Assembly (NCBI RefSeq): GCF_004359195.1 | Contig: NZ_CP037954.1 | Span: 620,001 to 684,000 of the forward strand | DNA from: Chryseobacterium salivictor | GTDB lineage: Bacteria > Bacteroidota > Bacteroidia > Flavobacteriales > Weeksellaceae | Direction: 5' to 3' | DNA length: 64,000 bases | Shown: piece after piece, positions 36,079-64,000 of the stretch | Position numbering within the stretch: the first letter of the stretch is position 1 | How the letters are laid out: each line of letters opens with the position of its first letter | Program-made: the position numbers and the translations under genes | Notes under the pieces: generated by a model | The model's input: the letters and a program-made list of their open reading frames with translations, nothing else | Database searches by the model: none | Told to the model about the DNA's origin: nothing

Positions 36079-36144
36079 TACAAATCCCGACAAAAAAAGA
36101 AACGCCAAAACGCAAGGCTTATCGCAGAGAGCAGAATCTCGGTT

Positions 36145-46115: not shown

Positions 46116-46217
46116 TCTATTTGTTTGGTGTACAAATGTAAGAAATATGGGGAAATAAAAAAGGGAGGTGAATTTGACGACCTTTCAGAATAAATAACAA
46201 TCATTTGCCGTTTCCTA

Positions 46218-46247: not shown

Positions 46248-46263
46248 CAACAATTACTTAAAA

Positions 46264-46959: not shown

Positions 46960-47008
46960 AACATTTTGGCGCAGGTAATTCCAAAATTAGGAAATTGGGC
47001 AACACTTT

Positions 47009-47035
47009 AAATTATTGAAAAACTTTCAATAATTT
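47009..47035 (+). terminator. Terminator of the exported-protein gene
   Basis: Perfect 12-bp hairpin AAATTATTGAAA / TTTCAATAATTT with a 3-base loop, followed by T residues. Confidence 0.75.
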
Positions 47036-47114
47036 TTTTTGTTTTTTTATTATAGTCTGAAATAGAACTTTGTTTTAAAATTAAGGTAGTGTCTTAAAAA
47101 GTGTGTAAAAAAAA

Positions 47115-47148
<34 letters not shown>

Positions 47149-47149
<1 letters not shown>

Positions 47150-47218
47150 ATTTGGTTTAGAAATGTGGGTAACTTTAAGCGAAGCGTAAAAAAGTTATCC
47201 ATATTTCTAAATCAAACC
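47149..47218. repeat. Long hairpin at the transposase 3' end
   Basis: 28-base arms (47149-47176 and 47191-47218) match with four mismatches around a 14-base loop. The right arm covers the transposase stop codon region (stop at 47212). It may act as a transposase terminator or block read-through from outside. Confidence 0.7.
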
Positions 47219-48393
47219 GCTACTTCTATTGTTTGCTTTTTTTTAAGTTCCTCTATTTCTCGAAACGCTGTTACTGGATAACTGTAAGATTTATATTCTT
47301 TTTCCATCGCAACAGAACCCATTAAAAAAAGTATTGATTCTGGACTAGGCATCGCTCCACGCATTTTTAAAACCCTTTTGTAATCCCTGTTCAAGCGCTC
47401 GATCCAGTTCGTTGTATAAATCATTCGCTGGATCGAGGGTGGATAATTTAAGTAGGTAAAATAAGCGATGTTTCGCTCGTTTGAGAACGATTTCAAACTT
47501 GAATAACTTTTTTGGTACTTCTCTACAAAACTACACAAATTTTTAAATGCTTCTACAGCAGTGATACTTTTTGTTTCAATAGCAAATATTTCCAGTAGTT
47601 CTTTACCAATTTCCAGTCTTTTTGTACGTGGAAAAACTGCTAATATATTCCGTTTGATATGCACCACACAAAGCTGATGTGAAGCATTGGGAAAGGATTC
47701 TGCAATCGCATTCTCAATTGAAGTCAAACCATCTGAAGCAATTAATCCAACACTTTGTACACCTCTTTCTTTTAGGGATTCCAGTTCCATTTGCCACAAT
47801 GTAGCACCTTCTGTTGGATGATTGACAATACTCAGAACTTCTCTTGATCCGTCTTCTTTGATCCCCAAAATCGTGTAATAACCTTCTTTACTAACTGATT
47901 TGTCTCTTCGTGTATGTACAAAAGTAGCATCAATGTAAAGTACCAAATAATGTGATTCTAATTTTCGTTTTAGCCAAATATCAACTTCCTCACGACTATC
48001 TTTCATCAGATAACTAATCTGCTGTTTGCTGTATTCTTTGCCATAAATCTCTTCGTATACATCGCTAACCTGCTCCGTGGTTAAGCCACGACGATATAAA
48101 CTGAAAATTAATTTGCGGCGTTCTTCATCTTCGTTGCGAAGTACATTTAATAAAACTGGATAAAATGTACCATTTCTTGTTCTTGGTACTTTTAAAATCA
48201 TCTCTTTGCCAAATCCCCTGGCTTTTCTCTCCCGGTATCCATTGCAATAGTCTCCTTCATTCTCCTGCTGATGAAGATGTCTTTCACTTTTCATAAAAGC
48301 ATTTAAGGTTAATTGCATCAATAAGTTGCTCCCATTTTCAGAATTTGCGACATTTAATAATAAATCCGAAATTTGTTCTTGTGTAAAGTTCAT
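47212..48393 (-). CDS. IS256 family transposase
   Basis: A 393-aa DDE transposase. The catalytic residues are visible as LYIDATFVHTRRDKS (D), GLIASDGLTSIENAI (D) and TNWIERLNRDYKRVL (E). The N-terminal region has the IS256 domain (GEDYCNGYRERKARGFGKE-like, here EGDYCNGYRERKARG) with mutator-type RRRGLTTEQVSDVYEE-like sequence (YRRGLTTEQVSDV). It seems intact and full-length, hence potentially active. Confidence 0.95.
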   Translation of the reverse strand: MNFTQEQISDLLLNVANSENGSNLLMQLTLNAFMKSERHLHQQENEGDYCNGYRERKARGFGKEMILKVPRTRNGTFYPVLLNVLRNEDEERRKLIFSLYRRGLTTEQVSDVYEEIYGKEYSKQQISYLMKDSREEVDIWLKRKLESHYLVLYIDATFVHTRRDKSVSKEGYYTILGIKEDGSREVLSIVNHPTEGATLWQMELESLKERGVQSVGLIASDGLTSIENAIAESFPNASHQLCVVHIKRNILAVFPRTKRLEIGKELLEIFAIETKSITAVEAFKNLCSFVEKYQKSYSSLKSFSNERNIAYFTYLNYPPSIQRMIYTTNWIERLNRDYKRVLKMRGAMPSPESILFLMGSVAMEKEYKSYSYPVTAFREIEELKKKQTIEVAV

Positions 48394-48589
48394 AAGTCTG
48401 TACGTTTATTTGTTGTAATTTAAAAATACAACTTTTTACTTTACACACTTTTTTAGTACAGTATCTCCTATGGTATTATCAAGTCGCCTTAATATTTTTT
48501 TGGATTTTTCTGAGCAGCACAAAAGAACCAGATGAATCATTCGCACTCTGCATAGATCGAATACTACAATATTTAATTATTACATAAAA

Positions 48590-48616
48590 AAAGGCTCTCA
48601 AATTTTGAGAGCCTTT
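48590..48616 (-). terminator. Terminator of the first susCD operon
   Basis: AAAGGCTCTCAAA / TTTTGAGAGCCTTT hairpin (near-perfect, almost loopless), just after the susD stop, with T-rich sequence on the minus strand. Confidence 0.75.
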
Positions 48617-48635
48617 CAAATTCACATTGAATTAT

Positions 48636-50060
48636 TTAGTTATCATAACCTGGATTTGAAACTACAGGAGTTCCGGAAATATCAGTTTCTGATCTAGGAA
48701 TTGGGAAAGCCAATTGGTTAATATTTATACTAGCAGGTTTGAATGAAGTATCACCCCATCTCAATTGATCCCACTGTCTGAATCCTTCACCAAGTAATTC
48801 TTTTCTTCTTTCTACCTTAATCATGTTAAGATTAACGGAAGTTATCGCATCCAATTGTTCCTGAACTGAAGTTACCGTAGTACCCACAGTTATTGGTCCT
48901 AATCTATTGGCTAAAATTTCTTTGTAATATTTTAGTGCTTTTGCAGGATCTCCACCGTTTAATTCAGCTTCAGCTCCATTTAAAAGTACTTCTTCATATC
49001 GGATCATTTTAATATTATCCGCCCCAGTTCTATTTAAATATTTACCTCTGGTACTGTAAGAAAGATAATTTACTCCACTCACTTTGCTTACCAGATTTCT
49101 TCTAATATCATTAGTTGCATACAATGCCAAGGTTGATTCATATACCACCAAATTTTTGTATCCGTTGTAGCTTAGAATCTGGTTGTAGGAACTTGTAGAA
49201 AGAGAAGAATCAGTCCCTACTTCCAATTCGAAAATTGAGTTAGGAGCAGCCCCTCTTAATGTAAAATCAAAAGATGGCTGATAAAGATCCCTTGCCACAA
49301 CGCTGTATTTACCATACAACTCATTGGTTAATGTTCTTACTTTGGCATAGTCTCCTTTGTAAAGATAAAATCTAGACATTAACACTTTTAAGGCGTTAAT
49401 TGAAAGCTCTGTCTTATTTGACGGAGTATCATTTGCTACTTTCGCTGTCATTACTGCCAAAGCTTTATTGAAATCTGCTTCGATTTGAACTTCAGTCTGT
49501 GCAATAGTACTTCTCGCTTGCAGAGCTTTAGGATCATACTTCGTTGGTGTTACCACTCCAAGGGGACCACCCGTATATTTCTGACCATAAAGTCTTAACA
49601 AATCAAAGAAACCCTGTGCTCTGAGCGCATAAGCCTGTCCTTGGTAATACTCCGCTTTTGCAACGTCAGCTGCGGTACCTGTCAACTTAGCTAAATCAGT
49701 ATTAATTACAATATTTGTTTTACCCACCATCGTATAAATTTGATTATACGTATCTCTAGCGTAAGCATCACTAGAAGTCATGTTATATTGTCTCACACTA
49801 TTAAAGTAGCCACTTCCGCCATTACTAAACATTTCATCCGAACGGATTTCTCCAAATGCAAGGTAGTCACGTCCATAATACGTAGCTGATCTCATTGATA
49901 CGTAAGCTCCTCTCACAAAAGATTGGATTTCCTGTACTGTCTTTAGATCCGATTGAATAACTGACTGTTGAAATTCTCTTTCAACAAAGTCATTACTACA
50001 AGATGTTGCTGCTGTTAATACCCCGAGAGATATAACACCTATTTTTAATATATTTTTCAT
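48636..50060 (-). CDS. RagB/SusD family outer-membrane lipoprotein (operon 1)
   Basis: Surface glycan- or nutrient-binding partner of the upstream SusC. The lipoprotein signal ends in ATSCSND (Cys about residue 21). The body has the SusD TPR-like helices (AYALRAQGFFDLLRLYGQKY, about residues 145-165) and the C-terminal SusD signature RRKELLGEGFRQWDQLRWGD (about 420-440). At 474 aa it is normal. It lies 12 bp after susC. Substrate unknown; no enzyme genes are next to it. Confidence 0.92.
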   Translation of the reverse strand: MKNILKIGVISLGVLTAATSCSNDFVEREFQQSVIQSDLKTVQEIQSFVRGAYVSMRSATYYGRDYLAFGEIRSDEMFSNGGSGYFNSVRQYNMTSSDAYARDTYNQIYTMVGKTNIVINTDLAKLTGTAADVAKAEYYQGQAYALRAQGFFDLLRLYGQKYTGGPLGVVTPTKYDPKALQARSTIAQTEVQIEADFNKALAVMTAKVANDTPSNKTELSINALKVLMSRFYLYKGDYAKVRTLTNELYGKYSVVARDLYQPSFDFTLRGAAPNSIFELEVGTDSSLSTSSYNQILSYNGYKNLVVYESTLALYATNDIRRNLVSKVSGVNYLSYSTRGKYLNRTGADNIKMIRYEEVLLNGAEAELNGGDPAKALKYYKEILANRLGPITVGTTVTSVQEQLDAITSVNLNMIKVERRKELLGEGFRQWDQLRWGDTSFKPASININQLAFPIPRSETDISGTPVVSNPGYDN

Positions 50061-50072
50061 TTTTTTTATCTT

Positions 50073-52925
50073 TTAAAAGCTTAAATTAACACCAAATAAA
50101 AATGATTTAAGAATTGGTAGCCCTAAATTTGACGCTCCAGAAAGGTTAATCTCAGGGTCAAATTTCAATCTATCATCAAAGGTATGTGTCCAAGCGTTAT
50201 TCGCCATTACATAAATTTGTGCACCTGTTAGACCTGTTCCGTTCAACAACTTATTTTCAAACGAATAAGAGAACTTCGCATTGCTTAATCTGATATAATC
50301 AGAATCATATAAGACACGGTCTGATACTCTGTAAGAATTCTTATTTCCGTAATAATACATTGGTTTTGGATTGGCTGCAGTTGTATTTTCCGGAGTCCAG
50401 TAGTTCCCCATTACATCTGCATATCCTGGGTAGTAATCGGAGTAATATCCATCAGAATACAAGTACGAAGCCCAGTCATCAAGAATCTTTCCTCCAAATC
50501 CATAGGTAAATTGTAGGTCTAATGCAAATCCTTTGTAGCTCATTTTTGTATTAAGTCCACCGTAAAGATTACTCAACATCGATCCTTGAACTGCTTGTTT
50601 AGCGGCAAAATAATCGTTTGTAGTTTCGCCACCTACGCCATCTTTGAACCATAATGGATCTCCGTTTGCAGCATCTACACCAGCCCATTTTCTAAGATAC
50701 CAAGTTCTTACACCTTCACCAACTCTCAGGGTAGTTGTTCCACCATTCACATCACCTCCATAGAGTTCTGTAATTTCGTTTTTCAAAGTTGAGAGATTGA
50801 ATCCTAAATCCCATGAGAATTCGTTTCTATCACCTCTAAATATATCTGCATTCAACGCAAATTCAAAACCTTCGTTAACCAAAGTACCAATATTATCTAC
50901 GTACGAGGTAAGACCTTGTGATCCTGATAACGGCAGGTTATAAATCAAATCTTTTGTTTTCTTGTTAAAATATTCAGCAGATAAGGTAACTCTGTTATTC
51001 CAAAAACCTAAATCTAATCCTATGTTTAATGGATTAACTGTTTCCCATGACAGATTTGGATTATATAGTCCTGAATACCCACCTGCAGCAAAATCATTAT
51101 AGTTGCTAGTAAATGAGTAAAGAGCATAAGGATTCGCACTAACTTGGTTTCCTAGTTTACCATATGAAGCTCTGAATTTCATCTGAGAAATCATATTGAT
51201 GTTTTTGATGTAGTCAATTTTAGCAAGGTCTAGACCAACCCCAGCAGACCAGAAATTACCTGCTTTCTTTTCAGGAACAAATTGAGAGAGAACATCTCTT
51301 CTAAATGAAGCATCTATCAAGAACAATCTTTTATAGTCATAGTGTCCTGTTACCGCATAACCATATCTTGAACTGTTACCTTTTGTACCTTCGTAACCAT
51401 AAGGAACGATAAAGTTAGATAATGTTTCAAGCGTTGGTGTTCCTACAGTAATTCCCGTAGCTGCTAAAAATTTATTATCGGTTTTATAGGCTTCTTGAAT
51501 TAAAGTAGCACCGACATTATGTACTCCAAATTTACGATTCCAATCCAAGATGTTTTGAACGTTGAAATTAAAATACCTGTTATTTGATGTTCTTTGGTAA
51601 CCACCGTAGGTGTAGCCATCTCCGTGCAATGGGTTCCAATATGTATCTTCTTCGATATTGATATACTCCGGAGAGAAGACAAATTTATAAGTTAAATCCT
51701 TGAAAATTTCATACTCAACTCCTAAATTAGCATACGCTCTTAAAGTTCCTGCTTTTGAATAATTCTTTTCTTGGAGGTATGGAATATTGTATAATCCATT
51801 AGAAAGTCGTGAGTTACTTGCTGCCCAATACCATGATCCGTCATCGTTTTTAGTTCTGTCGGTAGGTCTGTTAAAATATTGCGCTAAAATAGGGTTTGAA
51901 AAAGCACCACCCTGACTTAAAGTTTTCAAATTTGAATGAGAAACCTGAAAATCACTTGTCACTTTTAATTTATCAGTTGCCTGATATCCAACTTTTGTTG
52001 TAAATGCCAATCTGCTGAATGCAGAATTTTTAACAATACTTTCTTGACTAAAATAATTCGCAGAGGTATAATACGTTAATTTATCATTTCCTCCAGACAT
52101 GTTGAAGTCAACATTTTGCTGATATCCTGTCTTTTGGGTCTCTCTTCTCCAGTCAGTATCATTAGTGGAAGTGAAGATATTTTGCAGATCAGCACCTTCT
52201 CCGCCCGCTTCCAAAAAAGTATAAACTTCACCAATGTTTGCGAAGGTTTGCCCCCAAGACGGTGTTGCATTATAAGTATTCATTACTGACTGTGCCAAAT
52301 ACTCTCTCCATTGAGCTGTATTGAAAGCTTTGTGCCCTTCAATAGCCCTCTCGTTCATACCTGTGTTCATTGAAAGGTTAAATCTCGCCTTTCCTTTTTT
52401 GCCTGATTTTGTGGTAATAATAATTACCCCAGCTCCTGCATCAGCACCATAAACGGCAGTAGAAACTGCATCTTTCAGCACTGTAATATTTTCAATATCA
52501 TCAGGGTTCATACTTGCCAAAATATTAGCTGTCGTATTTCCCGTAGTTAAATCCCCCGAAGCAACTCTCACACCATCCACCACATAGATAGGAGACACTA
52601 CTCCATTAATAGACGACACTCCTCTAACACGTACGCTGGCCATACCTCCAGGCTGGCCCGAAGAACTTCCTGTTTGCACACCAGTTACTCTACCTTGCAG
52701 CATTTTATCTACAGAAGCAACCGGAACATCTTTAATCTTGTCTGCCCGCATAGTACTTGCTGATCCGGTCATTTCCTGAACAGTTCTTTTCTGTCCAAAA
52801 CCCACAACCACAACCTCTTCAATGTCGCTCACTTTTACAGTGTCTGAAGTAGTCTGTGCTGAAGCCATAATAGCCCCAACAAAAAACATGGCTCCAACGC
52901 TCAATGTTTGTAATTTCAAATTCAT
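50073..52925 (-). CDS. SusC/RagA TonB-dependent outer-membrane receptor (operon 1)
   Basis: A 950-aa TonB-linked beta-barrel importer. A signal peptide (MNLKLQTLSVGAMFFVGAIM, then ASAQ) is followed by the TonB-box-like DIEEVVVVGFGQKR and the plug domain (VDKMLQGRVTGVQTGSSSGQ to IIITTKSGKKG, about residues 65-185); the barrel ends in an aromatic strand (FLFGVNLSF). The N-terminal carboxypeptidase-regulatory domain typical of many SusC proteins is absent. It shares its promoter dyad with the other two susC genes. Pairing with SusD suggests glycan or oligopeptide uptake. Confidence 0.93.
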   Translation of the reverse strand: MNLKLQTLSVGAMFFVGAIMASAQTTSDTVKVSDIEEVVVVGFGQKRTVQEMTGSASTMRADKIKDVPVASVDKMLQGRVTGVQTGSSSGQPGGMASVRVRGVSSINGVVSPIYVVDGVRVASGDLTTGNTTANILASMNPDDIENITVLKDAVSTAVYGADAGAGVIIITTKSGKKGKARFNLSMNTGMNERAIEGHKAFNTAQWREYLAQSVMNTYNATPSWGQTFANIGEVYTFLEAGGEGADLQNIFTSTNDTDWRRETQKTGYQQNVDFNMSGGNDKLTYYTSANYFSQESIVKNSAFSRLAFTTKVGYQATDKLKVTSDFQVSHSNLKTLSQGGAFSNPILAQYFNRPTDRTKNDDGSWYWAASNSRLSNGLYNIPYLQEKNYSKAGTLRAYANLGVEYEIFKDLTYKFVFSPEYINIEEDTYWNPLHGDGYTYGGYQRTSNNRYFNFNVQNILDWNRKFGVHNVGATLIQEAYKTDNKFLAATGITVGTPTLETLSNFIVPYGYEGTKGNSSRYGYAVTGHYDYKRLFLIDASFRRDVLSQFVPEKKAGNFWSAGVGLDLAKIDYIKNINMISQMKFRASYGKLGNQVSANPYALYSFTSNYNDFAAGGYSGLYNPNLSWETVNPLNIGLDLGFWNNRVTLSAEYFNKKTKDLIYNLPLSGSQGLTSYVDNIGTLVNEGFEFALNADIFRGDRNEFSWDLGFNLSTLKNEITELYGGDVNGGTTTLRVGEGVRTWYLRKWAGVDAANGDPLWFKDGVGGETTNDYFAAKQAVQGSMLSNLYGGLNTKMSYKGFALDLQFTYGFGGKILDDWASYLYSDGYYSDYYPGYADVMGNYWTPENTTAANPKPMYYYGNKNSYRVSDRVLYDSDYIRLSNAKFSYSFENKLLNGTGLTGAQIYVMANNAWTHTFDDRLKFDPEINLSGASNLGLPILKSFLFGVNLSF

Positions 52926-52958
52926 ATTAACACATTTTTAATATTTAAGCTACAAATA

Positions 52959-52976
52959 TGTTAATTATATTTAACA
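52959..52976 (-). promoter_or_regulatory. Shared susC promoter dyad, copy 1
   Basis: TGTTAA-N6-TTAACA perfect dyad, overlapped at its gene-proximal end by a CATATTTG -7-like box. The same dyad lies about 33 bases upstream of all three susC ATGs. Confidence 0.6.
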
Positions 52977-53035
52977 TAACCAAATTAAATATATGATTCA
53001 CATTATATGAAAACCCTTCGGGAATTATTATAAAT

Positions 53036-53117
53036 TTATCATTATTATGTCCTAATGATAAAAATACTACCACTCTATGCTTTTTTAAGATATTTATGAT
53101 AATTTTATCATAAATAT
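53036..53117. promoter_or_regulatory. Pair of TTATCAT/ATGATAA palindromes upstream of susC 1
   Basis: First dyad: TTATCATTA (53036-53044) / TAATGATAA (53053-53061), 8-base spacer. Second dyad: ATATTTATGATAA (53090-53102) / TTATCATAAATAT (53105-53117), 2-base spacer. Both contain TTATCAT and ATGATAA, so one regulator could bind both. Confidence 0.5.
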
Positions 53118-53240
53118 TTGATAAATTTTGTTTCCTCAGCATTTATTGAAAACTTTAAACTTAGTTTCCACAGGAAAGCACGAGGGTAAGGATTACTTAC
53201 AAATTTGGATTGAAAGTTTTGATAACGATAAACATAAAAA

Positions 53241-53260
53241 AACCGCCATTGCTGGCGGTT
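53241..53260 (-). terminator. Terminator of the second susCD operon
   Basis: AACCGCCA / TGGCGGTT hairpin with TTGC loop, followed on the minus strand by a T run. A nearly identical terminator ends operon 3 (58013-58034). Confidence 0.75.
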
Positions 53261-53313
53261 TCTCTTATTGAAAAAATTCTATTGAAGATTTACTGTATCT
53301 TTCAGATTAGCTT

Positions 53314-54825
53314 TTATAAATCATTTTGCTTCACCAATCCTTTAGAAGCATCAATTTCACCTTGTGGTATCAACCATGTCCATCTTTTGTCTCCTGCAGG
53401 AACAGTAAGCAAGTTGTTTGTTACAGCGGAGACCTGATTGGTACCCGTTCTGTCTAAAGGTAAGTTCAATCTTTTGAGATCTAGGAATCTGAAACCTTCC
53501 CCCCAAAGCTCCAGTCTTCTGCTATTAAGGATCTCATCGACATAAGCTTGACCGGTTGTGGTAGCGCCAGCATAAGAAGGGTTTCTATTTTTCTCGAATT
53601 CGTTAAAAACGATCTTAGATTGTGCCTCTTTATTATCTCTAGCCAAAGCTTCTGCTTCAATCAAGTACATTTCTGCTGCTCTCATGAATGGAATATCTCC
53701 TAAACTTGTATTATTATCAATCGCGCCAGATGAGTTTGTTGATAAGAATTTCTGAGAAGTGTAAGGCACTTTCAAATAAGTTGAAGGCAAATTAAGAGCT
53801 GTATGAGCGCCCGTCGGGTCAATAACTTGAGTTCTCACATCTGTAGTTGCAAACTTAGCGTACAATAAATTGTTCACTACTTTTGGAGCCTGACGAATCT
53901 GAGATGAGTTATAATTTCTAGACATATATGCCATAAAGTTTCCAAAATAATCAGAAGTGGTATCTAAAGGCTTATATCCCCATAACCATTCAGTATTATC
54001 ATAACTATTGAATCCTTTTTTATAATCAGCATTCGTCATTAATGCAAAACCAGCTCTCGCTTCTTTGGCATAAGTAGCCGCCTGTGAATATTTCCCTTGA
54101 GTTAAAGCTACTCTAGCCATCAAACCTTTTACAACGCTCGCATTAAAATGCGATTTATTTGTCCTTGCTTTACCAGAAAGCAATCCAAATGATGAAGTAA
54201 GATCATTATTGATAGAAGTATAAACTTCTTCTAATGACGCTCTAGGAATTGCTTCGAACTCTAGATCTAACCTTAACGGAACTCCCATTTGAGTATTATT
54301 ACCACCAGCAACATATCTATTTGCATAAATTTGAGAAAGCATGTAGTAAGAGAATGCTCTAAATGCATAAGCTTCACCCATTAATTTATCTTTAACAGCC
54401 TGATCACCTGCAACTGCTGGAGTTTTAAGGATTACGATATTGGCCATTCTGATCTGCTCATAATAGAAATCGTAAGGGTAAAATAAGTTTCCAGAGTTTG
54501 CATTGGCATTATCCAACCATCTGATTGTACTCACATACCAGTTTGGACCGGCAGCAGGGAAAATTAAATCCTCACCCATGACGTCCATATAAATCATAAT
54601 TCCGGTATTCCCGTTCTGACCCTGACTAGAGTTTTGTCTTAAATACATATTTCTATGCATTCCGTTAATAATAGTACTTATATTCTCGATAGAACCAGAA
54701 GCCAACTGCTCACTTACAGAATCTGTTGGACCTGTTTCCAAATAATCTCTGTCGCATGATGAAACCATGCTCAATACTACTGAAGCAGCAGCAAATAAGA
54801 TTGTTTTTTTATTAATAAATTTCAT
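53314..54825 (-). CDS. RagB/SusD family outer-membrane lipoprotein (operon 2)
   Basis: A 503-aa SusD partner. Lipobox SMVSSCDRDY (Cys about residue 24). SusD helices are seen in GEAYAFRAFSYYMLSQIYAN, and the C-terminal signature RRLELWGEGFRFLDLKRLNL is complete (about residues 436-456). It starts 11 bp after its susC. The substrate is unknown; sequence differs clearly from the SusD proteins of operons 1 and 3, so the three operons bind different ligands or have diverged long ago. Confidence 0.92.
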   Translation of the reverse strand: MKFINKKTILFAAASVVLSMVSSCDRDYLETGPTDSVSEQLASGSIENISTIINGMHRNMYLRQNSSQGQNGNTGIMIYMDVMGEDLIFPAAGPNWYVSTIRWLDNANANSGNLFYPYDFYYEQIRMANIVILKTPAVAGDQAVKDKLMGEAYAFRAFSYYMLSQIYANRYVAGGNNTQMGVPLRLDLEFEAIPRASLEEVYTSINNDLTSSFGLLSGKARTNKSHFNASVVKGLMARVALTQGKYSQAATYAKEARAGFALMTNADYKKGFNSYDNTEWLWGYKPLDTTSDYFGNFMAYMSRNYNSSQIRQAPKVVNNLLYAKFATTDVRTQVIDPTGAHTALNLPSTYLKVPYTSQKFLSTNSSGAIDNNTSLGDIPFMRAAEMYLIEAEALARDNKEAQSKIVFNEFEKNRNPSYAGATTTGQAYVDEILNSRRLELWGEGFRFLDLKRLNLPLDRTGTNQVSAVTNNLLTVPAGDKRWTWLIPQGEIDASKGLVKQNDL

Positions 54826-54836
54826 TTTTCGATTTT

Positions 54837-57770
54837 TTAAAAAGTTGTACTTAATCCAAAAGTAATAATTCTGGCACTAGAGTATCTAGGGTTTACAGTT
54901 CCGTTAAATGATTGGTAAGGCTCTAATCCCTGTCTTTTACTTGACAACCAGAGATTTTCACCACTTACAAATAGTTTCAGACTGTTTATTCCTACATTTT
55001 TCACTACATCTTTATTGAAGTTATATCCCAATGAAGCATTCCTCAACATCACATAACTTGCATCCACCAACCATCGGGAAGATCCTGCATTAGCTTCAAC
55101 TGCTGTAACTGAATTAAGTACCGGCACATCTGTTATTTGACCTGGAGTCGTCCATCTGTCTAACAAATCTACGTGTGCTGCTCCACCTTGTAGGTAAGAT
55201 ACCATTAGGCCTGCATAGTTCGTATCATAGATTTTACCACCAAACTGATAGTTAAATGCTGCTGACAACTCAAAATTCTTAACATTTAAAGTAGTAGAAA
55301 TATTCCCGAAGAAATCTGGAATTGCAGAACCTTGGTACTCATATTTAGCTTTTGCTTGTTTTGTTGTTACAAGCGTGCCATTCACGGTTCTAACATCTGC
55401 CGCTTTTAAATCCGGATATAAAGTCTGATCTAAGACATACAATGCTGCTCCATCACTAGAATCTACTCCATACCAAGTTTTCAGCCAGAACGCATACAGG
55501 TCTTTCCCCACCATCAATTTCTTACTTCCGTTAATAATTGACTCCTGTGGAAGTTTAGTAATCTCATTTTTGTAAGAGGTACCATAAGCATTAACGGTCC
55601 ATTTTACATTTTGGTTTTTGATTACATCTACACCGATTGTGAGCTCATATCCTTTATTGGTAACATTACCAACATTGGTCTGGATACTGTTTCCAGGAAT
55701 ACCAGGATTCAAAGGAGTTGGAACAGGGAAAAGAAGATCTCTTGTTTCTGAGTTATAGTATTCTATCGTCCCTCTTACGCGTCTGTTAAATAATTCAAAC
55801 TCCAAAGCGATATCTGACTGGGCTTTAGTTTCCCAGGAAATAGATGGATCCGCTACATTTGACAAAATAACTCCCGGTTCCGTACCATTATTATACCCTA
55901 AATCGAATACAGATTGGTAAGGATACCATGAAGATAAAGCATCGTTTCCTACTTCACCGTAAGACCCTCTTAATTTTAAGAGATTAATCGCTTTAATATT
56001 GCTGATGAAATTTTCTTTAGACATCACCCAACCTGCACCGGCAGACCAGAATGAAGCCCATCTAACATCTGTTGCGAATCTAGAAGAAGCATCCCATCTG
56101 ATAGATCCTTCTAATAAATATTTCTCAGAGAAGTTATATTTTAAGCTACCAAACCAGCTTTCTTTTGTTCTGGTGTCAATTTGAGAATTGATGCTTGTAT
56201 TGTCTACAAATCCACCAAATTCATACGCTCCAGCGACACTTTGGTTTCTTTTATAACCATATAAATAATCACGTAAAAAAGCACTGTTTTCATGACCTGC
56301 AAGAGCAGTAAAAGCATGATTACCAAAAGACTTGTCATACGTTAAAACTTGATTAAAAGTATAATCACGGTTAAAATAAGCAGTTCTTGAAGCAGACCCA
56401 ACACCGATAGCATCACCTATAAAAGTATTGGTAAAGATTTTATTAAGAGTTCCCCTATAGTTATATGCACCATTAGTTCTGAAGGTTAATTCAGGAAGTA
56501 ATTTCATTTCTGCATATACATTTCCTTGGGCATTATAAGTATTAGTGGTGTTATTATTTAATAATGTTTCCCAAACGATGTTACGTCCTGATGCTGCATC
56601 CGGACCTCTCATTGCACCGGCATCATAAAGCACTTCTCCATCTGGACCGTACATTCTTTCCCCGGTTACCGGATCATGCTGGTATGGGCTATAAATAGGC
56701 CCCATCCGTCTTGTCCAGGAATATGGATTAATAAAAGAAGAACTGCTGTCGACACCATCTACGGCATTACCGCCACTACTTACCGAAGCATTTAAGCTTG
56801 TTCCTAATTTCAACCAAGATTTAACTTGAGAATCAGCGTTAAGACGCAATCCGATTCTTTCGAAGTCTGATTTAGTAATATATCCTTCCTCTTTTAAATA
56901 ACTCAAAGAAGAAAAGTAAGTACTTTTATCATTACCACCTGTAAAGCTTAAGTTGTGATCCTGCCTAACTCCAACACCAATTAGAGGTTCCGCCCAGTCA
57001 AAATCATTGTATTTCAGTTGTGCATTAGGATTTAAAACCCCGTCTACAACTAACGTACTATTTGGTACGTTAAAAACATTAGTTTTTAAGTTTCCTGTTA
57101 TCAAGTTAGCAGAAGCCCAGGCGTTTGAGGCTGCAATACCTTCAGCTGGAGTTGACGTTCTTCTACCATTTCTCATTGCCTCCCAAGCTAACACATAATA
57201 ATCAGCAGGACCCACTCTGTCGTATTCTTTAATAAATCTACTGCTAATACCAGTACTGGTATTCAAAGTTATTTTTGAAGAATTTTTCTTACCTCTTTTA
57301 GTGGTAATCATAATTACTCCATTCGCAGCAGATGAACCATATAGTGAAGTCGACGCCGCATCTTTCAATACGTTCAAACTTTCAATATCGTTAGGATTAA
57401 TCGAATTCAAGTTTCCCGGAAAAGGAACACCATCTACAATAATTAAAGGCTCATTTGAAACTGAATAAGATCCCGTTCCTCTAATTCTAATAGAAATCCC
57501 ATCACCTGGTTGCCCACTACCGGAAGCAACTTGAATACCAGCACCAGCTCCGTCTAAAGCTTGCAGCACATTTGAAATTGGACGCTCCTCAATCTCTTTA
57601 GCACCAACCTGTACGTTTGCTCCTGTCAAAGTAGACTTTTTCTGAACACCATATGCAACAACTACAACCTCTTCGATATTCTGAGTTTTGGTTGAGTCCT
57701 TTTGCGCCATAACTGCCTGTCCTGTAAAAAACAAAACCCCGGCAGTTAAAACTTTTAATTTCACATTCAT
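54837..57770 (-). CDS. SusC/RagA TonB-dependent outer-membrane receptor (operon 2)
   Basis: A 977-aa TonB-linked receptor. The signal peptide is MNVKLKVLTAGVLFFTGQAV, then MAQ, close to that of operon 3. Then come NIEEVVVVAYGVQKKSTLTG and the plug (RPISNVLQALDGAGAGIQVA to MITTKRGKKNSS, about 55-170). The barrel ends with ITFGLSTTF. As in the others, the carboxypeptidase-regulatory N-domain is missing. It shares the promoter dyad. Confidence 0.93.
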   Translation of the reverse strand: MNVKLKVLTAGVLFFTGQAVMAQKDSTKTQNIEEVVVVAYGVQKKSTLTGANVQVGAKEIEERPISNVLQALDGAGAGIQVASGSGQPGDGISIRIRGTGSYSVSNEPLIIVDGVPFPGNLNSINPNDIESLNVLKDAASTSLYGSSAANGVIMITTKRGKKNSSKITLNTSTGISSRFIKEYDRVGPADYYVLAWEAMRNGRRTSTPAEGIAASNAWASANLITGNLKTNVFNVPNSTLVVDGVLNPNAQLKYNDFDWAEPLIGVGVRQDHNLSFTGGNDKSTYFSSLSYLKEEGYITKSDFERIGLRLNADSQVKSWLKLGTSLNASVSSGGNAVDGVDSSSSFINPYSWTRRMGPIYSPYQHDPVTGERMYGPDGEVLYDAGAMRGPDAASGRNIVWETLLNNNTTNTYNAQGNVYAEMKLLPELTFRTNGAYNYRGTLNKIFTNTFIGDAIGVGSASRTAYFNRDYTFNQVLTYDKSFGNHAFTALAGHENSAFLRDYLYGYKRNQSVAGAYEFGGFVDNTSINSQIDTRTKESWFGSLKYNFSEKYLLEGSIRWDASSRFATDVRWASFWSAGAGWVMSKENFISNIKAINLLKLRGSYGEVGNDALSSWYPYQSVFDLGYNNGTEPGVILSNVADPSISWETKAQSDIALEFELFNRRVRGTIEYYNSETRDLLFPVPTPLNPGIPGNSIQTNVGNVTNKGYELTIGVDVIKNQNVKWTVNAYGTSYKNEITKLPQESIINGSKKLMVGKDLYAFWLKTWYGVDSSDGAALYVLDQTLYPDLKAADVRTVNGTLVTTKQAKAKYEYQGSAIPDFFGNISTTLNVKNFELSAAFNYQFGGKIYDTNYAGLMVSYLQGGAAHVDLLDRWTTPGQITDVPVLNSVTAVEANAGSSRWLVDASYVMLRNASLGYNFNKDVVKNVGINSLKLFVSGENLWLSSKRQGLEPYQSFNGTVNPRYSSARIITFGLSTTF

Positions 57771-57802
57771 ATTAACACATTTTAATATTTAAGATGCAAA
57801 TA

Positions 57803-57820
57803 TGTTAATTAGTTTTAACA
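57803..57820 (-). promoter_or_regulatory. Shared susC promoter dyad, copy 2
   Basis: TGTTAA-AACTAA-TTAACA on the minus strand, with the same CATATTTG box position relative to the susC start as copies 1 and 3. Confidence 0.6.
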
Positions 57821-57867
57821 TGAGCAATAGAGAATTTCATTTTCTACTATAATAGTGTCCATTTATA

Positions 57868-57920
57868 TGTATATTTTGAGTATTAAAAACACATTATGCA
57901 TTTAATATTCAAAATATACA
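57868..57920. promoter_or_regulatory. Large palindrome upstream of susC 2
   Basis: 20-base arms (TGTATATTTTGAGTATTAAA at 57868-57887 and its inverted copy at 57901-57920) with a single mismatch and a 13-base loop. It lies about 100 bases upstream of the susC ATG. Confidence 0.55.
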
Positions 57921-58012
57921 CTCTTTAAGTAATTTTTAATCCATTCAAGCTCGCCTTTTTAATAATGTAATATTTAAAAAAAACATTATTTAGAATAATT
58001 ATAAACATAAAA

Positions 58013-58034
58013 AAACCGCCATTGCTGGCGGTTT
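58013..58034 (-). terminator. Terminator of the third susCD operon
   Basis: AAACCGCCA / TGGCGGTTT hairpin with TTGC loop. It shares over 20 bases of context with the operon 2 terminator (AACATAAAAAAACCGCCATT), suggesting a duplicated segment. Confidence 0.75.
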
Positions 58035-58081
58035 CTTTTGAAAAAATACATTTGATATTTCTTATCAAAATCTGACTTTAA

Positions 58082-59689
58082 TTAATAACCTGGATTTTGC
58101 TGAGCAGCCAAAACAGGATTAGCACTCGTTTCCAATGTTGGGATTGGCCATACATATTTATGATCAGCATAAGGAATAGCCGGGACATCAGTAGTTTTAT
58201 AAACATATGGAGTTCCGATTTGGTAATCCGCATAGGTTGGATTCTGACCATTTCTGTATTTCGCCGGAATTCCAACTGCTGGCGTAAGAGCATCCTGCTG
58301 TAATCTATGGATGGTGTTCCACCTCAATCCCTCTGCCAGGAATTCGATTCTTCTTTCCAGTAACACTGCATTTACAGCCGCCGCTGGTGTTGTGAAAGCA
58401 ACATACTGCTCTGTTGCAGGATTTGTTAGAGATCGGTTTCTCACCGAATTCAGGTCTGCCAAATACGTAGCATCACCCAACCTTGCCTTAGCCTCAGCTC
58501 TGTTCAGCAGAACTTCTGCATATCTTAAAAGCGGTGAAGCATCCGTCAAAGTACTTGTATCCTTGTATTTATTCGACAGCAGAAATGACGGTTGCGAAGG
58601 CTGAGTAGGAGTACCAGCAGTCATTACAGTTTTTACTAGATTGGCACCTCTTCGTTTATCTGTTGCCAGCCATGATGGCTGATTCCAGATTACAGGGCTG
58701 ATTGCGATTAAAGCTCTACCATTATATTGTGAAGCCAAAGCACCATTTACACTTGGATTGTTGGTTGCAGAATTTTCCAAAGAGAAAATACTTTCAGTAT
58801 TACCGTAATTGTTAGCAAAAGGAGTATTCGGATCCGCAGTCAGTGTATAAAGACCATTTAATTTATTGGCTTCTTCAATGACTTTCGGATAATCCGCTTT
58901 GCTTAAATACACTCTTGTTTTTAATGCAATCGCTGCCTCTTTAGTTGCGTATACTATGGCGTTTTTAGCAGATCTTGCCGCCTTAGAAGTCATCAACGTT
59001 TCTGCCTTATCTAAATCCGCTAAAAGCTGCGTGTAATTCGCGGCTACAGTTCCTCTTGGAAGACTTGCATTCTCTTCAATAGTTGGCAAAGAGTTGCTTG
59101 CTTTCAACCTATAAGGAACCCCAAGGTGCGATGCATCTGCAGTATGTTTATAAGGCCGCGCAAAGAAGTTAAGCAATTCATAATGACTGAATGCCCTAAA
59201 AAACAAAGCCTGTCCGATATAATCATTCCCTTCTGCTTCCGGAATAACTCCACTCTGAATAGCCTTGGTAACGCCTTCGATCACAAGATTAGCCCTGTTA
59301 ACTAGCCTGTAAGTATCTACCCAGTAGTACACGGTATTTAATGCCCCTGAAGGATCCCAAGTCCCTGTATAAGTTATTGCATAGAAAGAAGCTGTATTCA
59401 CCATATCTTCGCCCCTCATGTCGTTTTGCTGAAAATAAGCGGCACCAAAAGGATAACCCCTACCTGCGGATGATGGATTTGCGTTATTATACTGCCCGAT
59501 TGCCGCTGCCTGATACATCCCATTCACCGAGAGGATGATGTTTTCTTTGGAGCTGAAAGCCACCTCTTCACTAATCTGATTATGAGGTGTAAGTTCCATA
59601 ATATTCTCCCTGTTACAGCCGGTGAGAGTGAACGCAGCAACTGCCAGTGACAAAAAATACTTTTTTGTTTTGATATTTTTGATATTCAT
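58082..59689 (-). CDS. RagB/SusD family outer-membrane lipoprotein (operon 3)
   Basis: A 535-aa SusD partner with lipobox TLTGCNREN (Cys about residue 25), helices IGQALFFRAFSHYELLNFFA, and the C-terminal signature LERRIEFLAEGLRWNTIHRL (about residues 430-450). It lies 11 bp after susC. It ends in a conserved-looking AQQNPGY tail. Substrate unknown. Confidence 0.92.
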   Translation of the reverse strand: MNIKNIKTKKYFLSLAVAAFTLTGCNRENIMELTPHNQISEEVAFSSKENIILSVNGMYQAAAIGQYNNANPSSAGRGYPFGAAYFQQNDMRGEDMVNTASFYAITYTGTWDPSGALNTVYYWVDTYRLVNRANLVIEGVTKAIQSGVIPEAEGNDYIGQALFFRAFSHYELLNFFARPYKHTADASHLGVPYRLKASNSLPTIEENASLPRGTVAANYTQLLADLDKAETLMTSKAARSAKNAIVYATKEAAIALKTRVYLSKADYPKVIEEANKLNGLYTLTADPNTPFANNYGNTESIFSLENSATNNPSVNGALASQYNGRALIAISPVIWNQPSWLATDKRRGANLVKTVMTAGTPTQPSQPSFLLSNKYKDTSTLTDASPLLRYAEVLLNRAEAKARLGDATYLADLNSVRNRSLTNPATEQYVAFTTPAAAVNAVLLERRIEFLAEGLRWNTIHRLQQDALTPAVGIPAKYRNGQNPTYADYQIGTPYVYKTTDVPAIPYADHKYVWPIPTLETSANPVLAAQQNPGY

Positions 59690-59700
59690 ATTAATAATTT

Positions 59701-62580
59701 TTAGAAAGTTGCATTAATTCCGAAGGAAATTGTTCTTTGTCTTGGTACTGCATTATAATCCATTCCCAGATTTTCCATCTCAGGATCAATCCCTTTATAA
59801 TTGGTAAACATTATTGCATTCTGCACAACGCCATAAATCCTAAACTTAGTTAGATTGATACTGGACAGCATTGCAGGATCTAAGGAATAACCGAGGGTAA
59901 TGTTATCAATTTTCACGAAGTCACCCTTCTCCACAAATCTAGAAGTAGCCTGGCCATTTAAATTAATGAAATTTCCTCTACCTCCATGTAATTTCGGAGT
60001 CCAACCATCTCCAGGATTGCTGGCACTTTGCCATCTTCCTAAGATTTCAGATCCGTTGTTATAAAAGTCCTGGTTGAGCAATTCTCTTCTTGTAACATTA
60101 AAAATATTATTTCCCCCGCTAAATCTTGCCATTACACTAAAATCAAATCTCTTATATTGTAATGTCGTATTCACAGAACCAAAATAGGTTGGAAGCGTAT
60201 TCCCTAATATTTGTCTATCATCATTTGTCAATGAAGAAGCGGTTCCCAGGTTACCTGGATTGGTAGGATCAAATAAATAATAGCCCTGATTGGCAATATT
60301 CGCCTGCACCAAAGAACCATCAGCTTTATAGTACACCGGATTACCGTTTGCTGCATTCACTCCCCAATATTTATATCCGTAAAGGGATCTTAAAGATTCT
60401 CCTTCTCTGATAAGATAAGCGGTTTCGCCGTTTTGGGATTGAATAATATCCTTACCATCTACCAAACCTGTAACTTTATTATCCATTAAAGTCAAATTAC
60501 CTCCAATACTCCATTTCAGATTTTCATTTTTTAAGATATCAGCGTTCGCGGAAAATTCGAAACCACGATTCTCCATACTTCCAATATTTTTATTGACCGA
60601 ATTACCCGGAACCCCTAAAGAAGGCGATAATGGTACTGCAAGAATTAACCCGTCATTCTCATTAACAAAATAATCAGCACTAAATGTAATTCTGTTTTTC
60701 AATAATCCAAAGTCTGCACCTAAGTTTTTCTTTGTATTTGTTTCCCATTTAAGCTGATCATTCCCTGCCTGCGAGTAGCCAATACCATTATAATCAGCAT
60801 ATTTAAAACTATTATACAATCCTAAATATGGATAATTTCCAATATCGGTATTTCCCACTTTTCCATAAGATGCCCTCAGTTTCAATTCAGAAAGCGTGTT
60901 AAGATCCTTCATAAAACCTTCATTTGAAACTGTCCATCCCAAGGAAACTCCTGGGAAATTACCCCATTTATTCGCCGTTGGTAAAGAAGACAAACCATCT
61001 CTTCTGATTGTTCCCTGAACAAAGTATTTATTCGCAAAATTATAGCTCAATCTTGCAGCATAAGAAATTAGACCGTTCTCCGTAGCACCTCCACCGGAAT
61101 ATTGAGTTGCATATGAACCAGAAATCACCCCTACATCACCAAAGAAATCAGAGGACAATCCCTGACCATCAGCAAAAAAACTGTTTGTTTTCTGCTTTTG
61201 GTATTCATTAACCAAAACCACATTTAAGTTATGTGATCCAAATGTTTTGTTAAAGTTCAGGATATTTTGAATATTCCACCGATCAAGGTTCAGGTAATTA
61301 TTATCGATATACCCTCCTCTTGAAAAACCGTCACCGTGAACCCTATTCCAATAGAGAAACCCGGTAGTGACAGAACGGTCTTTACTTACTTGCAGTTTGT
61401 AATCTAACCAGTCAGTAATTTTCACATCTCCCGCTATACTCCCAATAAATCTGGAAAGATCAGAAGTGTATTTATTATTATTCACAACATAAGCGATGTT
61501 TGTAAGATCACTGGTAATTGGGATTAAGTTATCCCATTGACCAACTCTGCTTACGGTGCCTTGCGTATAAATATTATAACCAGTAGGTGTTCTGGTATCA
61601 TATATCGGTGTATTAGGCAATTGACGCACTGCACTAAACATTGCTCCGGAAATTGAATTATATCCATTATTCAATCCTTTATAAGATGTTTCCGAGTAGG
61701 CAAAATTAGTACTGAGTTTAAACCAATCTGTAACCTTTTGATCGGCGTTCATTCTCAGTGAAATTCTCTCCATGGCATTTGGGGTAATCACCCCTTCCTG
61801 CTTTGTATATCCTAGAGATGCGTAATAGTTACCCTTTCCGAGCCCACCAGTCATCGACAAGAAATGATCGGTCTGCGTACCTGCTCTAAGCACCGCTTTT
61901 TGCCAATCAGTATTATAATCGCTTCCTTTAGCCCATACTGTTCCAGCTGCTTTTGCTTTTTCATTAGAAATTGTCAAGAAGTCGGGAGTCTCCAGTAGAT
62001 CCAATTTCTTCACTACACTTGCTACACTGAACATGTTATTATAAGATACCGTAAATTTTCCGTTTTTCCCTTTTTTTGTAGTAATCAAGACAACCCCATT
62101 AGCGGCGCGAGAGCCGTAAATTGCAGTTGCTGCCCCATCTTTCAGCACGGTCATCGATTCAATATCAGCGGGATTAATATCCGCCAATGCATTGGTGTAA
62201 GTATTCCCGCCACCGGTATCGCCGGCAAAAATAGGAACTCCATCAACCACATATAATGGCGATGTACCAGACGTTATCGTATTCACCCCCCGAATACGCA
62301 CTGTTGGCGCTCTGCCAATATCGCCTGAGCTACTTACCACCTGTACGCCCGATGCCCGACCCGCTAATTGCGCTTCGAACGTAGGAGTATTCAAATTGGC
62401 GATATCACTTCCTTTCACGGTTGTAATAGAGGAAGTTACATCTGCCTTCTTTTGGGTCCCATAGCCGACTACAACAACCTCCTCAATATTTTGAGTTTTA
62501 GTTGAGTCCTGCTGTGCCACTAACGCCTGTCCTGTAAAAAACAAAACACCTGCGGTCAAAATTCTTAATTTCACATTCAT
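59701..62580 (-). CDS. SusC/RagA TonB-dependent outer-membrane receptor (operon 3)
   Basis: A 959-aa TonB-linked receptor: signal peptide MNVKLRILTAGVLFFTGQAL, then VAQ; TonB-box-like NIEEVVVVGYGTQKKADVTS; plug from FEAQLAGRASGVQVVSSSGD to LITTKKGKNGKF (about residues 65-180); barrel to the final ISFGINATF. Its N-terminal 40 residues are almost the same as in operon 2, showing common descent. It shares the promoter dyad and has in addition a TTGTGA-N6-TCACAA site upstream. Confidence 0.93.
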   Translation of the reverse strand: MNVKLRILTAGVLFFTGQALVAQQDSTKTQNIEEVVVVGYGTQKKADVTSSITTVKGSDIANLNTPTFEAQLAGRASGVQVVSSSGDIGRAPTVRIRGVNTITSGTSPLYVVDGVPIFAGDTGGGNTYTNALADINPADIESMTVLKDGAATAIYGSRAANGVVLITTKKGKNGKFTVSYNNMFSVASVVKKLDLLETPDFLTISNEKAKAAGTVWAKGSDYNTDWQKAVLRAGTQTDHFLSMTGGLGKGNYYASLGYTKQEGVITPNAMERISLRMNADQKVTDWFKLSTNFAYSETSYKGLNNGYNSISGAMFSAVRQLPNTPIYDTRTPTGYNIYTQGTVSRVGQWDNLIPITSDLTNIAYVVNNNKYTSDLSRFIGSIAGDVKITDWLDYKLQVSKDRSVTTGFLYWNRVHGDGFSRGGYIDNNYLNLDRWNIQNILNFNKTFGSHNLNVVLVNEYQKQKTNSFFADGQGLSSDFFGDVGVISGSYATQYSGGGATENGLISYAARLSYNFANKYFVQGTIRRDGLSSLPTANKWGNFPGVSLGWTVSNEGFMKDLNTLSELKLRASYGKVGNTDIGNYPYLGLYNSFKYADYNGIGYSQAGNDQLKWETNTKKNLGADFGLLKNRITFSADYFVNENDGLILAVPLSPSLGVPGNSVNKNIGSMENRGFEFSANADILKNENLKWSIGGNLTLMDNKVTGLVDGKDIIQSQNGETAYLIREGESLRSLYGYKYWGVNAANGNPVYYKADGSLVQANIANQGYYLFDPTNPGNLGTASSLTNDDRQILGNTLPTYFGSVNTTLQYKRFDFSVMARFSGGNNIFNVTRRELLNQDFYNNGSEILGRWQSASNPGDGWTPKLHGGRGNFINLNGQATSRFVEKGDFVKIDNITLGYSLDPAMLSSINLTKFRIYGVVQNAIMFTNYKGIDPEMENLGMDYNAVPRQRTISFGINATF

Positions 62581-62612
62581 ATTAACATATTTTAATATTT
62601 AATTGGCAAATA

Positions 62613-62630
62613 TGTTAATAAAATTTAACA
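62613..62630 (-). promoter_or_regulatory. Shared susC promoter dyad, copy 3
   Basis: TGTTAA-ATTTTA-TTAACA perfect dyad on the minus strand, overlapping by two bases the CATATTTG -7-like box at 62607-62614. Confidence 0.6.
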
Positions 62631-62644
62631 TCAGCAATACCCTT

Positions 62645-62662
62645 TTGTGAAGTTTATCACAA
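62645..62662. promoter_or_regulatory. CRP-like palindrome TTGTGA-N6-TCACAA
   Basis: A perfect 6-6-6 palindrome identical to the classical CRP/FNR-family consensus half-sites (TGTGA-N6-TCACA). It lies about 35 bases upstream of the -7 box of susC 3. A Crp/Fnr-type regulator is a reasonable guess, but no such gene is in the window. Confidence 0.5.
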
Positions 62663-63080
62663 TAACTTAAATTAACAACCTATAAAACATCATTTTACTA
62701 AATTAATAACAGATATCGCATTGTATATTAAATTTCAACTAAAAAATATCAATTTTTATCAACACAAAAATATTACATCAAACGCTAATCTATATCCATT
62801 CTAAATAATTACCCATCAATAATGTTATTTTGTTGTAAAAAACAATAAAATATTTAGCTTTTCGTTTAAATTTAACACCCATAATAAGACAGCAATGATA
62901 AATTGAAAATAACGATTATCAGAAAATCTTATGATCATCCACATTTTAAAAACATTAAATATACAGGAACAGGGATCCTCAAAAAAAATAATATAGTAAA
63001 ACACAGTACTTTAAATTTTCACAGGATTCTTTTCGGGAGTTGAAAAGCTAACTTTTGACCATAGCCCTTTAACATCATTC

Positions 63081-63146
63081 TCATGAACTCCTCATGAACT
63101 ATCCATGAAGTATCCATGAAGCATCTATGGAGCATCCATGAAGCAA
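63081..63146. repeat. Six 11-bp tandem repeats
   Basis: Units are TCATGAACTCC, TCATGAACTAT, CCATGAAGTAT, CCATGAAGCAT, CTATGGAGCAT and CCATGAAGCAA: exactly 6 x 11 bp with mostly one to three changes between neighbours. The period is one DNA helical turn, so a protein could bind all units on one face. It lies about 205 bp beyond the infB stop, and 500 bp upstream of susC 3. Confidence 0.75.
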
Positions 63147-63311
63147 TATTGTGCGTGACCCGTCCTAAAATAATTATACAGATTAATAGATAAATCCTGA
63201 TATCACTATTTCAGGGCAAGACACTCGAACCCATTCTGAAATAGCCGATACAAATCATCTAGGCACTTTAGAAGTTTCTTCTTGACCTAAAAATATCTTT
63301 CTTAAAACAAA

Positions 63312-63336
63312 AAAACCTGCTAAGCTAGCAGGTTTT
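63312..63336 (-). terminator. Terminator of infB
   Basis: AAAACCTGCT / AGCAGGTTTT hairpin with a 5-base loop, followed by T residues on the minus strand, 17 bases after the infB stop. Confidence 0.78.
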
Positions 63337-63352
63337 AAATATATTTAAAGAA

Positions 63353-64000
63353 TTACTTTAATTTTTTCTTTACAGAAATCTCTTCGTAAACTTCCAGAAT
63401 ATCGCCAACTTCAATATCATTGTAGCCTTTAATATTCAGACCACATTCGTAGCCTTTGGTTACTTCTTTTACATCGTCTTTGAAACGTTTCAAACTTTCA
63501 AGTTCTCCATCGAATTTTACGATACCGTCGCGTAACAAACGAATTTTCGAGTTTCGGGTTACTTTTCCGGTAAGAACCATACATCCTGCAATAGATCCTA
63601 CTTTCGAAATTTTGAACACTTCACGGATTTCTACGTTCCCGATTACCTGTTCTTTTATTTCTGGTGAAAGCATTCCTTCCATCGCTTCTTTTACCTCGTC
63701 AATTGCCTTATAGATAACTGAATAGGTTCTGATCTCGATTTCTTCTTTGTCAGCCAGTTCTTTTGCATTAACACCTGCTCTCACATTAAAGCCGATCATA
63801 ATTGCATCTGAAGCCGCTGCTAATAAAACATCTGATTCAGTAATCTGACCTACTCCCTGGTGAATAATTTTCACGCTGATTTCCTCGGTAGATAAACTTT
63901 GAAGCTGATCTGAAAGTGCTTCTACAGAACCATCCACGTCCCCTTTCAGGATAATGTTCAATTCTTTGAAGTCTCCTAACGCAATACGTCTTCCTAATTC
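63353..64000 (-). CDS. infB: Translation initiation factor IF-2 (C-terminal part)
   Basis: GTPase that places initiator tRNA on the 30S subunit. Only the last 216 codons are in the window; the frame is open to the right edge. Visible parts are [34 protein letters not shown], and the domain with [20 protein letters not shown] then [20 protein letters not shown] and the closing [20 protein letters not shown]. These are the C1 and C2 domains (fMet-tRNA binding). The TTG at 63961 is an internal Leu codon ([11 protein letters not shown]), not a start. Confidence 0.95.

Follow-up and report, generated by a model that had tools for sequence, protein, structure and literature searches.

The regulation of SusCD uptake systems has been worked out mainly for Bacteroides loci that possess a dedicated local regulator. 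The present analysis concerns a 64,000-nucleotide stretch of the Chryseobacterium salivictor genome (contig NZ_CP037954.1, positions 620,001 to 684,000 of the forward strand, referred to throughout as the window), in which three susCD operons are each preceded by the inverted repeat TGTTAA-N6-TTAACA, termed here the dyad. Judging from its sequence and distribution, the dyad is proposed to serve as operator for a single dimeric DNA-binding regulator of outer-membrane uptake that would be common to the family Weeksellaceae, a reading to which a probability of roughly 0.7 is assigned. The operator of a regulon is a known kind of element, and more sites belong to the set than the three reported in the initial annotation of the window. 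With the SusR and hybrid two-component system (HTCS) regulators of polysaccharide utilization loci (PULs), the putative system shares the control of susCD operons, but it differs in that the same dyad is common to three operons whose SusC proteins are divergent. In PULs of the HTCS/SusR type a regulator gene stands beside the operons, whereas no regulator family was recognized here in the eight open reading frames (ORFs) scanned between 47212 and 63961; of the ORFs scanned, the closest one to resemble a regulator lies at 36145-36624, with a match below the Pfam cut-off. Nor do the three SusC proteins resemble those governed by an extracytoplasmic function sigma/anti-sigma pair, as no N-terminal signaling domain was found in them (only Plug, at an E threshold of 0.001) and no FecR-like neighbor among the same eight ORFs.

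Palindromes of comparable architecture are read by FNR (TTGAT-N4-ATCAA) and by CRP (TGTGA-N6-TCACA). Aligned in their usual register, TTAA-N6-TTAA has the half-site spacing of these operators, and it differs from them in its GTTAA half-site. A further relative is Cur (BT4338), the Crp/Fnr-like master regulator of Bacteroides, whose consensus is given in the available portions of its descriptions as wwwTATGTTnTAnAACATAwww (PMC6989115, PMC3878776, PMC10294740). As far as these portions go, the likeness consists in a palindrome with ATGTT/AACAT ends and in several targets that include carbohydrate utilization genes; the difference is that the gap between ATGTT and AACAT is 10 bases here, compared with 4 for Cur, and that at susC the site is placed within the presumed core promoter. 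A site of the Bacteroides Cur type (TATGTTnTAnAACATA, half-sites 4 apart) was thus rejected, since the half-site is alike but the aligned susC, pit, and exbB sites are spaced by 10.

A link between SusCD and phosphate genes, seen here with pit, is also found in the phosphate utilization system (PUS) susCD of Flavobacterium, which belongs to a low-phosphate response with PhoBR according to the accessible text of PMC8115612; the site described here is an inverted repeat, and that portion of the source nowhere uses the word "motif". No phosphatase or pst gene was recognized at the dyad sites that were read. For Bacteroides AraR, the available part of PMC4666351 does not state the letters of the site, and for Elizabethkingia BioL, the corresponding part of PMC12915131 describes electrophoretic mobility shift probes of palindromic sequences of approximately 50 bp at bio genes, likewise with the letters not stated. 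No report of the dyad was present among the literature matches listed, in a search whose scope left most subscription papers outside.

The Dyad at the Three susC Promoters

The three exact dyads occupy positions 52959-52976, 57803-57820, and 62613-62630 of the window, as the initial annotation had it, and were recovered both from the sequence and in a genome scan. Their half-sites are identical and their 6-base spacers differ (TTATAT, TTAGTT, and TAAAAT on the plus strand). All three susC genes are encoded on the minus strand, on which the octamer CATATTTG and a similar leader, TTAAATATTAAAA...TGTTAAT-ATG, accompany each dyad, so that the claim of one and the same dyad in all three promoters was borne out in each of these particulars. 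The proximity of the dyad to the start codon was likewise found, although the gap, originally put at 33-34 bases, recounts to 33, 32, and 32 bases for susC1, susC2, and susC3, respectively.

The exact form is rare. The three copies in the window compare with a total of 2 over 100 dinucleotide shuffles, and across the 3.14 Mb genome, a single contig, the only exact dyads are the same three, with 1 occurrence of a reversed control pattern. Occurrence before many unrelated genes, which would have reduced the dyad to a habit of AT-rich promoters, was thus not encountered for the exact form anywhere else in this genome. A scan of the other SUS operons, suggested at the outset, led to the same three: 10 SusC genes in the genome exceed the TIGR04056 cut-off, 3 of them carry the exact dyad, and these are also the 3 of the 10 that have a signal peptide of the MN[VL]KL type. 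When the dyad was extended by TATTTG and up to three mismatches were allowed, the genome returned 18 matches (6 forward, 12 reverse) versus 10 for the control (6 and 4), the best match after the three susC sites having two mismatches (at 597249), and the bare dyad with up to two mismatches occurs 10 times in the window versus 9.1 expected, which is not significant. Since the latter count equals chance, information resides only in the near-exact form. An Rfam scan of 46000-64000 gave no family over its gathering score.

Promoter Anatomy around the Dyad

Sigma-A promoters of the Bacteroidota carry a TTG element at -33, usually separated by about 20 bases from the -7 element. For the latter, the consensus TAnnTTTG is given for Flavobacterium psychrophilum in the available part of PMC9723704, and CATATTTG departs from it at a single position, the first base. 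All of these features are found upstream of susC, with the transcription start site being presumed from the sequence. In operon 1, the presumed -7 element lies at 52953-52960 and shares two bases with the dyad, the presumed -33 element, TTTG, lies at 52981-52984, placed by the register of TTG in related loci, and a conserved AT-rich leader recognized by alignment fills 52926-52952; the presumed -7 and -33 (TTG) elements are at 57797-57804 and 57825-57827 in operon 2 and at 62607-62614 and 62635-62637 in operon 3, all on the minus strand.

The same arrangement was followed through 25 loci with such operons (24 stretches from relatives and the window, termed array loci; L081, L082, and L091 were excluded as having no susC), which together hold 46 exact dyads. 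Behind all 46, TTTG stands in register, and 45 have the full CATATTTG. Before all 46, TTG is found at 4 bases (40 dyads) or 3 bases (6 dyads), giving TTG-N20 or TTG-N19, respectively, up to the -7 octamer, with the dyad occupying the presumed -33/-7 spacer. Near the ends of the dyad, the G is kept in 41 and the C in 44 of 44 promoters, while the 6-base spacer drifts and is A/T in nearly all of them.

Conservation within the Genus and the Family

Within the genus, 35 of 36 genomes have the exact dyad, at 91 sites versus 22 for the control, often serially at intervals of about 4.8 kb, and TATTTG follows the dyad at 56 sites in the 36 genomes. Among 45 susC 5' ends from 25 genomes, selected by their TTAAT-ATG leader, the dyad is exact in 42 and has one mismatch in 3; a looser selection by signal peptide gave 44 promoters, with 40 exact, 3 one-mismatch, and 1 two-mismatch dyads. 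The SusC proteins behind the 45 ends fall into 11 lineages at 50% identity of the body. Between promoters of the same lineage, the half-sites differ by 0.0066 per site compared with 0.351 for the spacer (138 pairs), and between lineages by 0.0116 compared with 0.432 (852 pairs). Half-sites that are fixed around a free spacer of fixed length point to a dimeric DNA-binding protein.

The genus stretches and the window together (0.70 Mb, DNA largely fetched for holding a dyad) contain 62 exact dyads, of which 46 belong to susC (3 of them assigned by reading), 4 to pit, 3 to exbB, and 2 to fadL.

Beyond the genus, TGTTAA-N6-TTAACATATTTG, which is the dyad with TATTTG, was matched in 195 of 296 sampled genomes of the family, in 12 of 33 genera, with 0 for the control columns. 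All 30 loci read from two of these genera (3 from g12 and 27 from g21) have the dyad 32-39 bases before a frame with a SusC start of the MN type, and the Plug domain was found in 10 of the 10 such frames scanned. In a sample of the order, 55 of 395 genomes match the dyad with TATTTG, all inside the family, and no genome of the 15 other families in that sample does. The gene infB was nearby in 25 of 52 family loci examined, a set that includes 3 SusC loci of two genomes, one with the exact dyad. Two genomes of other genera together have 28 SusC genes over the cut-off, of which 26 were read, the 2 without a locus being left out. Among the 26, one (L297) carries the exact dyad at the expected position, and one with a different type of SusC (L308) shows a match with one mismatch at 69 bases upstream. 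A further SusC of genome G170, over the cut-off and without a locus of its own, begins immediately after the exact dyad in L115.

Sites before exbB-tonB, DUF47-pit, and fadL

A fourth dyad, overlooked in the initial annotation, is present in the window at 3300-3317. It reads TGTTAATGTATCGTAACA on the minus strand, with one mismatch, and stands 106 bases before exbB (2324-3193, Pfam MotA_ExbB), the first gene of an operon that continues with two exbD genes (1643-2245 and 1066-1635, Pfam ExbD) and tonB (196-1035, Pfam TonB_C), all on the minus strand and all with matches over the cut-off. Across the genus, a site with at most one mismatch was found before exbB in 24 of 30 loci read versus 8 of 900 shuffles, and when up to two mismatches were allowed, 26 of 30 loci had a site at 106-113 bases, versus 84 of 900 shuffles anywhere in 170 bases. 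The 30 loci derive from 35 exbB matches, 5 of which had no locus; for DUF47, 30 were read from 36 matches, 6 having no locus.

Before the DUF47-pit operon, a dyad is present in all 30 loci read, 61-65 bases before the ATG, in exact form in 4, with one mismatch in 23, and with two in 3, its second half being mostly TTAATA. The DUF47 gene of this genome has a Pfam match, and the transporter behind it was scanned in a relative, in which the match to PitA is below the NCBIfam cut-off. At a threshold of E 1e-30, a DUF47 match was obtained from a single genome among 31 of another family of the order. Because the dyad recurs before exbB and pit at positions that are fixed but differ from each other and from that at susC, an identity as a core promoter or sigma-factor element was rejected.

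An extended palindrome, AATGTTAA-N6-TTAACATT, occurs at 11 sites in 10 of 120 family genomes, versus 1 for the control, and the sites belong to pit (7), exbB (1), fadL (2), and one other gene, as named from the N-termini with 3 checked by Pfam. In two species, the exact extended dyad lies just before a gene for a FadL-type outer-membrane protein (L081 at 9358, with a Pfam match to Toluene_X, and L082 at 9630). Lone exact dyads were also seen before genes resembling GltP/DctA (L101), an acyl-CoA ligase (L103), and a TonB receptor (L098).

It has to be noted that the one-mismatch form is not rare in itself, as the 0.70 Mb contain 7 such dyads (3 at susC, 1 at exbB, and 3 others) and 6 one-mismatch matches to a control dyad. 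At this background a lone site means little, and it is the conserved position that counts.

Proposed Model and Alternatives

The proposal of the initial annotation that one regulator controls all three operons stands as the best inference in view of the confinement of the exact dyad in this genome to these promoters, its presence before many SusC lineages, and its recurrence at exbB-tonB and pit. That one protein reads all of these sites is likewise inferred. In the model proposed here, a dimer bound to the dyad inside a housekeeping promoter, between its presumed -33 and -7 elements, would keep RNA polymerase off susCD, and the operon would open upon release of the regulator. The same regulator would bind farther upstream of exbB-exbD-exbD-tonB, which powers the transport through SusC, and upstream of the DUF47-pit phosphate-transport operon, and could act at either of the two by activation or by repression. 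The signal is probably the nutrient state. If the dyad is an operator, repression is the likelier mode of control at susCD, as a dimer bound there would cover the core promoter. It appears that, in the Weeksellaceae, divergent SusCD pairs share a single operator with the TonB motor by which they are driven. The dyad would provide a defined bait for fishing out its regulator, and the system would offer a clear model of how a newly acquired transporter is placed under existing control.

Several findings weigh against such a family-wide operator. The exact dyad is missing altogether from one genome of the genus (G023), an MNVKL-type susC of another genus (L298, genome G170) has a decayed site only, and the exbB site is not in place in 4 of the 30 loci. 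Seven of the 62 exact dyads lie either at other genes or at no gene, and one of the seven, in L106, falls within a gene. The pit sites are a plain count, and the exbB and pit sites of this genome, each with one mismatch, rest on their conservation in relatives, given that a control dyad has 6 one-mismatch matches in the 0.70 Mb. The sampling itself favors conserved copies, since the array loci were fetched for the exact dyad and the ends were picked by their leader. With respect to the reader of the dyad, this genome has 8 cNMP-domain matches, and 46 CRP/FNR-type loci, which include 7 of these 8, showed no dyad with up to one mismatch within 220 bases upstream; they were read from 50 loci fetched by taking the ORF nearest the middle of each, and at least one (L253) may be another gene. 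With none of the 46 bearing an upstream dyad, an autoregulated CRP/FNR gene was rejected as the candidate.

The dyad might instead bind an activator working in the manner of MerR, which would bend or untwist the spacer and switch susCD on from inside the promoter. Such a mechanism would accommodate the position of the dyad, which fills the presumed -33/-7 stretch, as well as the departure of CATATTTG from TAnnTTTG at its first base, which is reminiscent of promoters that need help, and the location of the exbB and pit sites farther from the start codon, where activators often bind. However, TTG-N19/20-CATATTTG is of ordinary length when set against the consensus spacing, so that no untwisting would be needed, and the differing positions before pit and exbB are ill-suited to a MerR-type mechanism, which makes an activator unlikely. 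More improbable still is that no protein binds the dyad and that the conserved block is a strong AT-rich core promoter joined to the translation leader of one class of susC, as could be imagined from the continuation of the conservation into TATTTG and the leader and from the A/T content of the spacer; this is difficult to reconcile with a G and a C being kept near the dyad ends while the spacer drifts, and with the conservation of the same dyad at other distances before exbB and pit.

The initial annotation also considered that the promoters were copied along with the operons, for which it pointed to the nearly identical signal peptides of SusC2 and SusC3. The two are indeed 85% identical over their first 40 residues, but the likeness is local, falling to 30.8% beyond residue 60, and thereby loses its value as support for duplication. 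High identity along the whole operon, as a recently duplicated operon would show, is not found, as the full-length identities are 30.8-34.7% among SusC1-3 and 28.4-32.2% among SusD1-3, and the 200 bases farther upstream are about 50% alike. Moreover, SusC1, SusC2, and SusC3 all have counterparts within their respective lineages in further species of the genus, at 50% body identity or more and preceded by a dyad that is identical or almost so. A recent duplication as the source of the three promoters is accordingly a very remote prospect, and on the sequence comparison the three operons are old paralogues. The local identity of SusC2 and SusC3 suggests conversion or constraint of the 5' end rather than duplication of the operon.

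The infB-Porin Slot

The three operons follow each other on the minus strand, with susC1 at 50073-52925 and susD1 at 48636-50060, susC2 at 54837-57770 and susD2 at 53314-54825, and susC3 at 59701-62580 and susD3 at 58082-59689; the susC genes were identified as TonB-dependent receptors with a plug domain by ORF and family scans, the susD genes by the ORF scan. Upstream lies infB, likewise on the minus strand, of which the 3' part is listed as an ORF at 63353-63961. The slot is constant, with infB present in all 25 array loci and porin10 in view in 21 of the 25. The relatives have infB and porin10 4.8-14.7 kb apart, a distance that fits one to three cassettes, versus 17.2 kb in the window, which also holds an insertion sequence element. 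Immediately downstream of susD1, a Mutator-type (Transposase_mut) transposase is encoded at 47212-48393 on the minus strand, separating the last susCD cassette from the porin, and no Transposase_mut was present at this spot among the relatives' loci listed. Directly before the ATG of susD3, as at the susC starts, stands TTAAT, both in the window and in the orthologue of the gene in L076.

Whether 5' ends are exchanged between the cassettes of one genome was addressed by comparing ends of different lineages. The 5' codons are 0.725 identical within a genome (28 pairs) versus 0.714 between genomes (824 pairs), a difference reached in 9 of 2000 shuffles, and the promoters 0.788 versus 0.781, reached in 233 of 2000 shuffles and thus not clear. 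Taken together, these values are weak evidence, from sequence comparison, for 5'-end conversion within a genome. A more speculative extension, which is doubtful on balance, is that promoter, leader, and signal-peptide codons could form a standard socket at the fixed slot infB-[susCD]1-3-porin-bshC. The SusCD bodies of at least 11 lineages would have been swapped behind this constant 5' module, which would both anchor recombination and put newcomers under a family-wide regulator that also sets the TonB-ExbBD energy supply and phosphate import.

Two cassettes in relatives may be impaired. In one (L077, near 11646-11760, genome G009), the slot susC has an intact dyad but ATA in place of the ATG start, and in another (L087, 4849-7881, genome G013), two ORFs take the place of the intact slot susC, the first of them preceded by a dyad with one mismatch, and the cassette is probably decaying.

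Other Features of the Window

At 34789-36624 on the plus strand, a tetratricopeptide repeat protein with a membrane-like end segment (34789-36078) is followed in the same frame, after one in-frame stop, by a weak sigma70-r4 match (36145-36624), and the two are apparently one gene for a membrane-bound regulator split by a stop codon. An ORF of the phage-integrase family at 30715-32061 adjoins a DUF285 surface protein with a type IX secretion system sorting tail (32819-34414), and the region 30715-34414 is a possible mobile island.

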